Shown one piece after another: positions 34,058 through 38,690 of a DNA stretch of 64,000 nucleotides. Source of the DNA: Clostridia bacterium. GTDB taxonomy: Bacteria; Bacillota; Clostridia; Christensenellales; CAG-138. A program made the translations under genes and the position numbers. Position 1 is the stretch's first letter. Each line of letters opens with the position of its first letter. The stretch lies in NCBI GenBank assembly GCA_017416425.1, contig JAFQCL010000016.1, positions 1 through 64,000 of the forward strand, given 5' to 3'. The notes beneath the pieces were generated by a model that was given only the letters and a program-made list of their open reading frames with translations, did no database searches and had not been told where the DNA came from.

Positions 34058-35101
34058 ATGGATTTGTACGAGGTAATATCCTCGCTTATTACGAAGGCCG
34101 GCGTGACCGGCCACGAATACGCTGCAGCGGATGTTGTTGAGGAGTATTTCCGTCGCTATTCCGACAATGTATGGCGTGACACATCCGGCAACGTATTTTG
34201 TCGTATAGGCGAAAAGAAGCCCTCTGTCATGCTGATCGCGCATAATGATGAGATCGGTATGATGGTAACAGGGATAGAGGATAACGGTATGCTTAGGATA
34301 CGTTCCGTAGCGGGCGTAGACCCAAGGGTACTGCCCGGTTCCGAGGTAGTTGTGCATGGAAAAGAGGCTTTAAAAGCTTTCATAGGAGCAGTTCCCCCGC
34401 ATCTTATCGTTGGCGGAACGGACGCGGCGTATAAGATGAGTGATCTGCTTGTTGATACGGGTCTTTTGCCTGAAAAGGTAAATGAGCTTGTAAGCATCGG
34501 CGATATAGTGACATTTGCTCTTGAAGAGCCGCTTAAGCTTAAAAATAATGTGATAGCGGGAAAATCGCTTGATGACAGGGCGCTTATCGCGTGCATGCTT
34601 GAGGTGGCCGAGATACTTGAAAAGAGAAAGATAGTCGGTTCAGTGATACTTTGCGCTTCCACTCAAGAGGAGTGCAGTGGACCCGGAGCGGGAGTCGCTG
34701 CTTTTAGTGCGGAGCCGGATATAGCAATCGTGCTGGATGTTACACACGCGCCGCAACCCGGTGCGGATCCGTCAAGCACCATCCCTCTGGATAAGGTAGG
34801 AATTTGTGTTGGAGGAAACATACATCCCAAGGTGTTCTCAATGCTGAAGGCGGCCGCAAGCGAGGCAAATATCAGCTATGAGATCGAAGTTGCCATGGGC
34901 TTTTCCGGTACCGATGCGGATTTCGTGCAGATGACAAGGTATAGCATCCCCACGGGTCTTGTATCGCCGCCCGTAAAGTATATGCATACAAACGTTGAGA
35001 CTATGAGCCTGGATACGCTTAAGAACGTAGCAAAGGTAGTTGCTGAATTTATCGCAGGTCTTGGCAGTGATTGGGAGGAAAAGTTATGTTTGGACGACTA
35101 A
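34058..35101 (+). CDS. M42-family metallo-aminopeptidase, copy 1
   Basis: A 347-residue peptidase of the tetrahedral (TET) aminopeptidase/FrvX family, which trims short peptides in the cytoplasm with two metal ions. The metal site is recognisable: AHNDEIGMMV (His62), SLDDRALIACML, STQEECSGPGAG with the catalytic Glu pair, VLDVTHAPQPG, FSGTDAD, and a C-terminal YMHTNVE. It is the first of three homologues in a row and overlaps the next gene by 16 bases. A TATAAT at 34014-34019 could be its -10 box, but no clear -35 is visible. Confidence 0.9.
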   Translation: MDLYEVISSLITKAGVTGHEYAAADVVEEYFRRYSDNVWRDTSGNVFCRIGEKKPSVMLIAHNDEIGMMVTGIEDNGMLRIRSVAGVDPRVLPGSEVVVHGKEALKAFIGAVPPHLIVGGTDAAYKMSDLLVDTGLLPEKVNELVSIGDIVTFALEEPLKLKNNVIAGKSLDDRALIACMLEVAEILEKRKIVGSVILCASTQEECSGPGAGVAAFSAEPDIAIVLDVTHAPQPGADPSSTIPLDKVGICVGGNIHPKVFSMLKAAASEANISYEIEVAMGFSGTDADFVQMTRYSIPTGLVSPPVKYMHTNVETMSLDTLKNVAKVVAEFIAGLGSDWEEKLCLDD

Positions 35102-36120
35102 AGGAACTGACTGAGCTTAATGGCGTAAGCGGAAATGAGGGCGAAGTTCGCAAATATATCCGTGAATATGTAAAGCAGTATGCGGATGAGGTTTGGACGG
35201 ATTCCATGGGGAACCTTTTTGCGCATAAAAAGGCCAATGGTCGCAAGATAATGATATGCGGGCATATGGATGAGGTCGGCATGATGGTCACAAGAATCCG
35301 TGATGATGGTCTTATCTCTTATGCGGCAGCCGGTATTGATCCGCGCGTTGTAGTTGGAAAGCGTGTTGCGGTAGGTAAGGACAAGGTAATGGGAGTTATA
35401 GGCTCAAAGGCTATCCATCTTCAGAGCAGATCGGAATTTGAGTCTTCCTATAAGCATAGCCAGCTCTTTATAGATATAGGTGCAAAGGATAAAGCCGATG
35501 CCTTGAAGTATGTAAATATAGGCGACTACATTACTTTTACGACCAAATATGAGGAGTTTGGAGACGGTCTTATCAAGGCAAAAGCGCTTGATGACAGGAT
35601 CGGCTGCTGCATGGTAATGGAAATGCTAAAAAACTCCTATGATTGTGATCTTTACGCGGTATTTACCGTTCAGGAGGAGCTTGGCCTTAGGGGCGCCAGG
35701 AGCGCCGCTTTTGCCGTGGAGCCTGAACTTGCTCTGATACTTGAGGGAACTACCGCAAATGATATGGCAGAGGTGCAGGGTCACCAGTGGGTAACACGTG
35801 TCGGCAAGGGCGTTGCCATAACATTTATGGACAGAGGCACAATAACAAGACCTGCTATGTTTGATGAGCTTAAAAATTGTGCTTTGGAGAATAATGTTAT
35901 CTGGCAGATAAGGCAGGGAAATTCCGGCGGTACCGATGCGGGCAGGATACACCTCACAAAGGGCGGCTGTGTTACAGGCGGCATATCCGTACCGTGTAGA
36001 TATATTCATTCCGCAGTGAGCGTTGCGGCAAAGAGTGATATAGAGAATATGTACAAGCTTGTTGACAGCTTCCTAAAAGAGAAGCGCTTTGAAAAGGTGC
36101 TTAGTGTACTTGGCCAATAA
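35086..36120 (+). CDS. M42-family metallo-aminopeptidase, copy 2
   Basis: A 344-residue paralogue of its neighbours with all expected ligands: CGHMDEVGMMV, ALDDRIGCCMV, VQEELGLRGA, ILEGTTAND (Glu where copies 1 and 3 have Asp), GGTDAGR and YIHSAVS. I start at ATG 35086, which has GGAGG at 35074-35078; a TTG at 35071 lies ahead of that site. The gene overlaps the end of copy 1 in another frame and is followed by copy 3 after 20 bases. TET enzymes can form mixed 12-mers, so the three products may assemble together. Confidence 0.93.
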   Translation: MFGRLKELTELNGVSGNEGEVRKYIREYVKQYADEVWTDSMGNLFAHKKANGRKIMICGHMDEVGMMVTRIRDDGLISYAAAGIDPRVVVGKRVAVGKDKVMGVIGSKAIHLQSRSEFESSYKHSQLFIDIGAKDKADALKYVNIGDYITFTTKYEEFGDGLIKAKALDDRIGCCMVMEMLKNSYDCDLYAVFTVQEELGLRGARSAAFAVEPELALILEGTTANDMAEVQGHQWVTRVGKGVAITFMDRGTITRPAMFDELKNCALENNVIWQIRQGNSGGTDAGRIHLTKGGCVTGGISVPCRYIHSAVSVAAKSDIENMYKLVDSFLKEKRFEKVLSVLGQ

Positions 36121-36140
36121 TAGATAAGGAGAAGAATGCC

Positions 36141-37145
36141 ATGTTTAAGGATATGTTAAAAACGATGCTTGCGGCGTATGGCGCGACCGGCCGCGAGCAG
36201 AATGTAAGTAACGTAATAAGATCGTTTGTTGAGCCTTATGCGGATGAGATATATAACGATGTGATGGGTAACCTGATAGCCGTAAGAACGGGCGAGTCTG
36301 GCAAGAAGATAATGCTCTCCGCTCATATGGATCAGATAGGCTTTATCGTTATAGATATAGATGAAAAGGGCTTTTTGCGCGTATCAAATGTCGGAGGCAT
36401 AAATCCGTTTATAAGTGTTGCAAGGGCAGTCGTATTTGAAAGCGGAGTGCAGGGCGTGCTTTTCTGCGAGCCGGAAAAGGGCATGAAGGAAGCCTCAATG
36501 TCAACGCTCTTTATCGACATAGGCGCAAAGGACTATGAAGAAGCAGCTTCTAAGGTATCCATCGGTGATGTTGCCGTATATGTAAGCAATTATATGGAGC
36601 TGGGGGATCGTGTATCATGCGGAGCGCTCGATGACCGTATATGCTGCGCAATTGTTGCGGAAGCTTTCATGAATGCTCCCCGCATACATGATGTATACGC
36701 CGTGTTTACGGTGCAGGAGGAGGTCGGTCTTCGCGGAGCGACCACTGCTGCCTATGCTATTAACCCCGATTTTGGCATCAACCTTGATGTAACGGCTGTA
36801 GGCGACATACCCAAATGCGCTAAGATGTCGGTAAAGCTTGGAAATGGTCCAACCATTAAGGTCATGGACTCATCGGCGATAATACCCAAATTTGTACGCA
36901 ATCACCTTGAAAGGGTCGCTTGTGAAAATAACATAACCGTTCAAAATGAGGTCTTGGCGGCGGGCGGCACGGATGCCGGCGCTGTGCTTAAGACTCGCGG
37001 CGGCATACCTGCGTGCTGCATTTCAATACCTACCAGGTATATACATACCCCTGTCGAGACTGCAGATATGCGTGACTGCCTTGGCGCTATAGATTTTGTT
37101 AGGGCTTTGCTTTCCGAAAAGGAGATACCCGCTTTTAAGGCATGA
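36141..37145 (+). CDS. M42-family metallo-aminopeptidase, copy 3
   Basis: A 334-residue paralogue. It shows SAHMDQIGFIV (Gln in place of the usual Glu after HMD), ALDDRICCAIV, VQEEVGLRGA, INLDVTAVGDIP, GGTDAGA and RYIHTPVE. All metal-binding residues are kept. AAGGAGAAG precedes the ATG. A terminator closes the three-gene unit. The different residue choices around the active sites suggest three distinct side-chain specificities rather than simple gene dosage. Confidence 0.93.
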   Translation: MFKDMLKTMLAAYGATGREQNVSNVIRSFVEPYADEIYNDVMGNLIAVRTGESGKKIMLSAHMDQIGFIVIDIDEKGFLRVSNVGGINPFISVARAVVFESGVQGVLFCEPEKGMKEASMSTLFIDIGAKDYEEAASKVSIGDVAVYVSNYMELGDRVSCGALDDRICCAIVAEAFMNAPRIHDVYAVFTVQEEVGLRGATTAAYAINPDFGINLDVTAVGDIPKCAKMSVKLGNGPTIKVMDSSAIIPKFVRNHLERVACENNITVQNEVLAAGGTDAGAVLKTRGGIPACCISIPTRYIHTPVETADMRDCLGAIDFVRALLSEKEIPAFKA

Positions 37146-37192
37146 TCGACCGCGGATCGCGTTGAGTTTAGCCCAAAATACTGATATTAGAT

Positions 37193-37236
37193 AAAATCAC
37201 ACTCGGTCGTTTTACGGTTGAGTGTGATTTTGTTCA
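37193..37236 (+). terminator. Terminator of the M42 unit
   Basis: AAAATCACACTC (37193-37204) pairs perfectly with GAGTGTGATTTT (37220-37231), with TGTTCATTTTATTTTG after it. It may also serve the convergent dockerin gene. Confidence 0.85.
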
Positions 37237-37296: not shown

Positions 37297-38604
37297 TTAT
37301 CCATCCGCAAGCGCGGCGCGCAGTATCAGCAGCGCATCGAAAGCCGTAACATCTCCGTCATTATCCATGTCCGCATTGGCAAAAGCCTCGGGATCGAGCG
37401 TTTCAAGGCTCATGGCGCATCTAAGGGCGAGTAGAGCATCCATGGCGGATATGATGCCGTCCCCATTGGTGTCACCCGGTAAAGCTCCCACATCGTTGTG
37501 AAGATGGGTATTCGCCGACAGCTCGGGATAGCCATATGCGGGATTGCCGTCCATTGTCCAGATGTTATCAAAGTCAAAGCCGTAGAAGCTCTCTGCCTGC
37601 TGCATCTGGGCATGGCTAAGCTCAACGCCGTATTCATTCAGACCGGGGAAGGTGCCCTCAAGATAATAGATGCCGGTCAGAGTGCCCTGGTTGCTGCCGA
37701 TCGCGGAGCCGTTTGCAAAGCCATCCGAGACATTGCCCACGCTGTAGCAGTTGCTAACTTCCGCATCATTGCTGCCAACGATTCCGGCCGTATAGCCATC
37801 GCCGCTGACATTGCCTGTGCTGTAGCAGTTCTCAACGATGCTTTGAATATTATTACCGCCAACAACGCCGCCGGCCGTATACGCTCCATCGATATCACAG
37901 GTGCTGTAGCAGCCCGAAACTATTGCCTCATTGCAGTTTGAGCCTGCAATACCGCCGCCATAATAATAGCTGCTGCCAACCTTACCTGTGCTGTAGCAGT
38001 TTATAACGCTGCCCCCGTCATTCTGGCCGACTATCGCACCAATGGCATAGTATCCATATATGAATGAATCAACAACGCCGACATTCTTAATTACACCGCC
38101 CTCTGAAAGACCGAATAATCCCTGCCAGCTTGAGCTATTGTCAGCACTGGTGCGGTTTATATATATTCCGTGTATGGCATGCCCTGCGCCATCAAATATG
38201 CCGTTGAAGGCACAGCCCTCCCACTCAAATGTATCGTAATTTCCAATGGGCGTCCAAGTATTGGCGGGCTCGATTATGCCTTCGGCTCCATTGGGGCTTC
38301 CCCAGCTTTCAAAATCGGAGACATCGTTTATAAAGATATCATTGGTGAGTATGAAATGCTTCCCCTCATACAAGGCGCCCCTGTTCACCGAATCGGCTAA
38401 AAAGGCAAGCTCCTCGGCAGTTGAGATGAGGTATGGATCACTTTCATCGCCGCTTCCGCCCGAAAAGCCTTCAGCAATGCTTCCATCCCATATATCTCCG
38501 GCTTTGGAGGGCTTTGCACTTGCGCTTAGCGGCAGCAGAAGCAAGGCAAAGATCAAAGCGATGGCCATAAGGCGCTGCAGTATGGTCTTTCCTGTTGTTT
38601 TCAT
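37297..38604 (-). CDS. Secreted GLUG-repeat protein with a C-terminal dockerin
   Basis: A 435-residue exported protein. The signal peptide has a basic start, a long hydrophobic core and a SASA-KP cleavage site near residue 30. The middle (about 60-350) carries GLUG-type repeats, recognisable as GG-(I/V)-V/A-G...NCYSTG units occurring four to five times, which form a beta-helix in bacterial surface proteins. The last 60 residues hold two calcium-binding dockerin repeats (DTNGDGIISAMDALLAL and DMDNDGDVTAFDALLIL), which normally dock into cohesin modules of a scaffold. No cohesin, sortase signal or membrane helix is present. AAAGGAGG supports ATG 38604. A promoter lies at 38662-38690. Confidence 0.88.
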   Translation of the reverse strand: MKTTGKTILQRLMAIALIFALLLLPLSASAKPSKAGDIWDGSIAEGFSGGSGDESDPYLISTAEELAFLADSVNRGALYEGKHFILTNDIFINDVSDFESWGSPNGAEGIIEPANTWTPIGNYDTFEWEGCAFNGIFDGAGHAIHGIYINRTSADNSSSWQGLFGLSEGGVIKNVGVVDSFIYGYYAIGAIVGQNDGGSVINCYSTGKVGSSYYYGGGIAGSNCNEAIVSGCYSTCDIDGAYTAGGVVGGNNIQSIVENCYSTGNVSGDGYTAGIVGSNDAEVSNCYSVGNVSDGFANGSAIGSNQGTLTGIYYLEGTFPGLNEYGVELSHAQMQQAESFYGFDFDNIWTMDGNPAYGYPELSANTHLHNDVGALPGDTNGDGIISAMDALLALRCAMSLETLDPEAFANADMDNDGDVTAFDALLILRAALADG

Positions 38605-38661
38605 GGATTTTATACCTCCTTTGTTTTTAGTGCGACCGTAAAATTTCACAGCACTTTTGAG

Positions 38662-38690
38662 ATATTATACAAAAAGTATATCACTGTCAA
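38662..38690 (-). promoter_or_regulatory. Promoter of the dockerin-protein gene
   Basis: On the minus strand consensus TTGACA (38690-38685), a 17-bp spacer and TAATAT (38667-38662) precede the gene by about 60 bases. Confidence 0.7.

Follow-up and report, generated by a model that had tools for sequence, protein, structure and literature searches.

Cohesins and dockerins have been described in several organisms where their use departs from cellulose degradation. Ruminococcus albus has many dockerins that share a near-uniform recognition code and at most one cohesin, which itself carries a dockerin, as an adaptor-type protein; the dockerin proteins of R. albus include carbohydrase-bearing ones (PMC4081043). 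Lachnoclostridium sp. MSJ-17, presumably non-cellulolytic, encodes dozens of dockerin proteins and single-cohesin proteins with C-terminal transmembrane helices, together with a scaffoldin of two cohesins and one lignocellulose glycoside hydrolase that bears a dockerin (PMC11557425). In the gut, the Limousia mucinolysome is a cohesin-dockerin complex that is not aimed at cellulose. It has a sortase-anchored scaffoldin, dockerin peptidases and up to 12 cohesins, and is defined by its dockerin glycoside hydrolases for mucin glycans (PMC12997984). Clostridium perfringens makes non-cellulosomal use of single cohesin (X82) modules, borne on the glycoside hydrolases themselves (PMC12997984), and a non-cellulosomal cohesin is also known from the archaeon Archaeoglobus fulgidus (PDB 2xdh). 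In R. flavefaciens, a minority of the dockerin proteins are peptidase-like or contain leucine-rich repeats (PMC2930009). Searches of the open-licence literature for protease-type scaffoldin systems, or for dockerins in Christensenellaceae, turned up no description of the system of the family treated here.

The locus considered here lies in a window of 64,000 nucleotides from an uncultured gut member of the Clostridia. Its genome (G000; 41 contigs, 1.63 Mb, 95% complete) resembles the systems above in its dockerins, and differs from them in what those dockerins carry and in having a single socket.

A secreted GLUG-repeat protein with a dockerin

The gene occupies positions 37297-38604 of the reverse strand, stop codon included. 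By the open reading frame list and its translation, it encodes a secreted protein of 435 amino acids that begins at an ATG at 38604. A ribosome-binding site, AGGAGG, stands 10 nt upstream of this ATG (38615-38620, reverse strand); starting instead from a GTG at 38649 would lengthen the protein by 15 amino acids. Further upstream, a consensus scan gave a promoter-like site, TTGACA-17-TAATAT (38662-38690, reverse strand), with 10 of 12 matches, named for consensus likeness alone. Residues 1-30, MKTTGKTILQRLMAIALIFALLLLPLSASA (38515-38604, reverse strand), form a predicted signal peptide, read by eye from the translation, with a basic start, a hydrophobic core and an A-x-A site where cleavage is predicted between ASA and KPS.

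Three stretches of the protein match the GLUG family (PF07581; 37.6 bits and E=2.1e-9 for the whole protein, cut-off 20.5), and the best-scoring of these lies at 37978-38055 on the reverse strand. A single-sequence AlphaFold2 model (pLDDT 37.9) is too poor to bear out the beta-helix that the preliminary description gave to the GLUG part. The C-terminus matches the type I dockerin domain, PF00404, at 37321-37479 on the reverse strand. It scores 41.9 bits (E=1.2e-10, cut-off 22.9) in a Pfam scan of the protein and 46.1 bits in the genome-wide search, where E=9.3e-12 over the whole genome places it far above chance. The first repeat, DTNGDGIISAMDALLALR (37420-37473, reverse strand), spans the calcium loop and the start of the helix, with A and M at positions 10-11 and L and R at positions 17-18; the second, DMDNDGDVTAFDALLILR (37318-37371, reverse strand), has A and F, and again L and R, at these positions. 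Both repeats contain the canonical calcium loop, D-x-N/D-x-D...D. The preliminary description of this gene, made from the sequence alone, is thus borne out in its account of a secreted protein with a signal peptide, GLUG repeats and two C-terminal dockerin repeats. It was also right that the protein lacks a glycoside hydrolase domain in Pfam. Of 81 family genomes, 63 have regions homologous to the protein; many of the matches cover the GLUG part or the dockerin part only.

The neighbouring genes do not explain the presence of this one. Three M42-type peptidase genes lie on one flank, and Crp/MarR-type regulators and ABC transporters, named from their translations, on the other. The three M42-type aminopeptidase genes (34058-37145) are consecutive paralogues, the first two overlapping, and a long hairpin (37190-37234) separates them from the GLUG gene. 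Neither PF00963 nor two clade profiles found a cohesin in the window. In line with the preliminary description, no glycoside hydrolase turned up among 19 large open reading frames of the window scanned against Pfam.

A divergent cohesin on a membrane anchor

A whole-genome search returned 17 dockerin proteins above the PF00404 cut-off, and no cohesin with PF00963 at E<=0.001. When the PF00963 search was relaxed, one sub-threshold cohesin appeared on contig C18 (G000:C18:122749), at 19.2 bits against a cut-off of 24.1. A clade profile was built from 14 relatives' cohesins, themselves first found with PF00963 and with G000 left out. It matched the same locus over its full length (E=4.8e-15, 55.7 bits), and a profile of three single-cohesin anchors again had the C18 cohesin as its sole match in the genome. 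A genome without a cohesin is rejected on the PF00963 and clade-profile matches together. The puzzle of dockerins without a cohesin is resolved because PF00963 narrowly misses the C18 cohesin; the apparent lack is an artefact, owed to the limited sensitivity of the Pfam model. The earlier remark that no cohesin was in sight therefore holds for the window and fails for the genome, and the whole-genome profile check that had been proposed finds the dockerins readily, but the cohesin only with the clade profile and not at the PF00963 cut-off. The cohesin profile searches found no multi-cohesin scaffoldin in G000, and a related-locus scan with the genome's own anchor as query gave no match.

Across 37 compared genomes of the family, cohesin and dockerin counts are correlated (Spearman 0.75). 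Fifteen of them have at least 10 dockerins, and all of these except G000 show one to ten cohesins. In the congener G001, which has 5 dockerins, no cohesin came to light, but its assembly lacks murG as well. Weak PF00963 matches in G001 (C49:564 and C78:9221, E 0.07-0.09) were considered as cohesins and are unsupported by the clade profile.

The cohesin gene of G000 (G000:C18:122635-123528, forward strand) encodes 297 amino acids. Its product starts with a signal peptide and has a single cohesin at residues 29-165. A linker in which Ser, Asp, Pro and Thr abound then leads to a C-terminal transmembrane helix, placed by hydropathy at about 271-293 and followed by a KNKNK tail. The gene is flanked by a VanY-like peptidase gene and murG (names from translations), and no dockerin gene adjoins it. 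G009, G030 and other members of genus g9 encode homologues with this layout. Searched against the PDB, the profile of three single-cohesin anchors matches cohesins only, the best sequence match being 2xdh (E=1.1e-5). The G030 homologue, about 27% identical to the C18 anchor over the cohesin domain, gave an AlphaFold2 model of modest confidence with nine strands (mean pLDDT 46, higher in the domain itself). Cohesins fill the best 29 rows of a Foldseek search with this model and the top 41 rows of VIA-align (Z 12.9), and the homologue thus models as a cohesin fold. In a cohesin tree, the G000 sequence groups with the family's single anchors and scaffoldin cohesins in one clade (support 99/98). 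Its branch is long (1.94), and the tree fixes the family clade, not the exact place within it.

Judged by the relatives' profile, the C18 protein is homologous to accepted cohesins, and it may have lost dockerin binding. Its predicted architecture of a cohesin and a C-terminal transmembrane helix places it in the class of 'nonSLH-anchoring scaffoldins', which combine one or more cohesins with an element for attachment to the cell surface, for example a C-terminal transmembrane helix (PMC11557425). On the same contig, 3.5 kb from the cohesin gene, lies a gene (L050:848-5086) for a subtilase-like protein of 1412 amino acids that lacks a dockerin and has a sorting signal of PKTG type at its C-terminus. 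With sortases encoded on contigs C11 and C2, this protein implies that two surface-anchoring routes coexist in G000.

Cargo of the dockerin proteins

Peptidases are prominent among the 17 dockerin proteins. Five are subtilases (PF00082), three of them in tandem on C4, one on C18 and one on C41; the tandem subtilase-dockerin paralogues lie at L036:1221-10048. Two others have DSHG...C motifs and are clan CD peptidase-like (C16 and C31), and one with HEYQH is a putative peptidase (C26), all three assigned by motif only. There are also a redoxin-like protein on C2, a CAP-domain protein on C35, a CHAP/NlpC-like protein on C32 (read from sequence only) and two GLUG proteins, namely that of the window and one on C27. 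Four other proteins complete the set. Several have long stretches that match no Pfam family.

Because Pfam gives no glycoside hydrolase domain in any of the 17, the system is not a cellulosome. We reject that candidate on this ground and for want of a multi-cohesin scaffoldin in the genome, and the preliminary description was right in not seeing a cellulosome. A mucinolysome was likewise considered and rejected, G000 having no dockerin-bearing hydrolase for mucin glycans and no scaffoldin with several cohesins.

Recognition code and gene order

Dockerin positions 10, 11, 17 and 18 serve to predict cohesin recognition (PMC4081043). The 17 dockerins of G000, which sit on otherwise different proteins, have D12, A13, L17 and R18 in all 34 of their repeats. 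Position 10 is Ala or Ser in 32 of the 34, and position 11 is mostly Met, Leu or Ile. In a set of 69 dockerins, positions 10-11 are 39% identical within genera and 17% identical between them, a difference reached in 0 of 2000 permutations, and this genus-specific code is partly explained by kinship of paralogues.

Gene order in relatives also pairs cohesin with dockerin genes. Three genomes, G009, G030 and G086, have a gene for a thioredoxin-like dockerin protein directly after the anchor gene, and then a peptidyl-tRNA hydrolase gene (L058:10001-12761, L059:9938-12500 and L175:3312-7333). Dockerin genes also lie downstream of the anchor gene in G074 and G080. In G000, the homologue of the paired thioredoxin-like protein is encoded on another contig than the anchor (L037). 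This homologue retains an intact CxxC (CGPC), which is lost in the paired copies (SADC, YDVC and SAEC).

Enlarged systems in relatives

Some relatives have expanded this machinery considerably. The divergent-cohesin profile found up to 22 cohesins per genome in genera g9 and g25, and four scaffoldins stand out: 2299 amino acids with 12 cohesins in G086 (contig C15, L169:5099-11995), 2036 with 11 in G067 (C58, L170:1729-7836), 1902 with 10 in G091 (C2, L171) and 1462 with 9 in G084 (C59, L172:2-4387). Three of the four have a terminal PPTG-hydrophobic-RRKED sorting signal; the contig stops before the end of the fourth. In G086 and G067, which have 61 and 83 dockerins respectively, the scaffoldin gene adjoins a dockerin gene.

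We sampled 119 dockerin proteins of relatives with Pfam, 56 and 24 of them from G086 and G067 and 39 from other relatives; the lists of strong matches are complete for two of these sets and cover 25 of 26 families for the third. Domains found include Cleaved_Adhesin/DUF2436, subtilases, leucine-rich repeats, Big_2, redoxins, VWA and lectin. Cleaved_Adhesin and DUF2436 are known from the gingipain-type proteases of Porphyromonas, and two of the relatives' dockerin proteins (L176:232-4752 and L232:859-3999) combine them. No glycoside hydrolase appears in the Pfam lists for the 119, where the carbohydrate-linked domains are isolated ones, Cthe_2159, CBM60 and HL_N-beta. Undetected enzymes are possible in this cargo because many stretches match no family.

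We put it at even odds that, in this uncultured family of gut Clostridia, one member of which is labelled Christensenellaceae, cohesins and dockerins serve to mount proteases and adhesin-like proteins on a platform at the cell surface. Such a platform would range from the one-socket anchor of G000 to scaffoldins of 9-12 cohesins with 60-80 cargoes, with essentially no carbohydrate-degrading cargo, and would amount to a complex of cellulosomal scale with a different job.

Proposed mechanism and alternatives

We propose, with a probability of about 0.7, that the cell secretes the GLUG-dockerin protein and that calcium-dependent docking attaches it to the C18 membrane anchor, as one of 17 cargoes of a minimal non-cellulosomal display system. 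After export, its C-terminal dockerin would be held, calcium bound, by the single cohesin of the transmembrane anchor, leaving the GLUG repeats to bind host, food or neighbouring cells. The anchor is taken as the shared socket because it has the sole cohesin found in G000, and any of the 17 dockerin-tagged proteins might be displayed on the cell through it. With one cohesin gene for 17 dockerins, each anchor copy would carry one cargo, and the cargoes would compete. The sequences show the domains, the genome's inventory, cohesin homology, gene pairing in relatives and shared recognition residues; binding, surface exposure, calcium dependence and the role of GLUG we infer. The preliminary description had suggested an adhesin plugging into a cohesin-based surface structure. 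The structure half of this suggestion gains from the membrane-anchored cohesin and from 16 further dockerin proteins with nearly the same recognition residues; for the adhesin half, the evidence is the GLUG repeats only.

The dockerins could act without any cohesin, as calcium-stabilised C-terminal caps or through another receptor. This was raised for R. albus, where dozens of dockerins accompany at most one cohesin (PMC4081043), and would suit the C-terminal position of the dockerins in G000. We consider it improbable, given that a cohesin is present and that the recognition positions are conserved in both repeats of 17 different proteins, which a mere cap would not need. Slightly less probable still is that the dockerins find their cohesins elsewhere in the community, for example on cellulosome-bearing ruminal bacteria, the genome's own cohesin serving something else. 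A single, divergent cohesin gene for 17 dockerins is what such an arrangement might leave, and possible scavenging of other organisms' dockerin proteins by some scaffoldins was suggested in a 2024 survey (PMC11557425). However, the dockerin code is uniform within G000 and different between genera, nearly all dockerin-rich relatives have cohesins of their own, and relatives have cohesin and dockerin genes side by side.

A true cellulosome, its carbohydrases missed through incomplete assembly or through domains outside Pfam, is very unlikely. It could draw on an assembly that is 95% complete in 41 contigs, on the long family-less stretches in several dockerin proteins, and on the isolated carbohydrate-linked domains in relatives. 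Against this, 17 dockerin proteins of the genome and 119 of its relatives are without a glycoside hydrolase in the Pfam lists, and G000 is without a multi-cohesin scaffoldin. Display on the C18 anchor remains our preferred reading.

Significance and comparison with known systems

Orphan dockerins are a recurring puzzle, of which R. albus is the textbook case, and for G000 the puzzle is gone once a clade-specific profile is used. This suggests that other seemingly cohesin-less dockerin genomes should be searched again with such profiles. Surveys that require dockerin glycoside hydrolases, or that use the Pfam cohesin model, would miss or undercount systems of this kind. If the pattern of protease and adhesin cargo is true, cohesin and dockerin represent a general principle of surface display in gut Clostridia and not mainly a device for degrading cellulose. 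With one small cohesin and 17 near-uniform dockerins, G000 offers a simple test system.

The genome is like R. albus in the number and near-uniformity of its dockerins and in its scarcity of cohesins; unlike that of R. albus, its cohesin is membrane-anchored, and its cargo is of peptidase and extracellular-domain type. It shares with Lachnoclostridium sp. MSJ-17 the single-cohesin protein with a C-terminal transmembrane helix, and its dockerin set can be likened to that species' dozens, whereas the two-cohesin scaffoldin and the dockerin-bearing lignocellulase have no counterpart in G000. The Limousia mucinolysome is similar in not being aimed at cellulose, and its sortase-anchored scaffoldin, peptidases and cohesin number recall the relatives of G000, but no dockerin glycoside hydrolase of the kind that defines it was found in G000. 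Single cohesin modules outside a cellulosome are shared with C. perfringens, where they sit on enzymes and not, as in G000, on a non-catalytic membrane anchor. The A. fulgidus cohesin, the best PDB match to the anchor profile, is likewise non-cellulosomal, yet archaeal and with no known link to a 17-member set of peptidase and GLUG dockerin proteins. What separates this family from the known systems is a cargo free of carbohydrases across the family as sampled and, in G000, the one-socket form.
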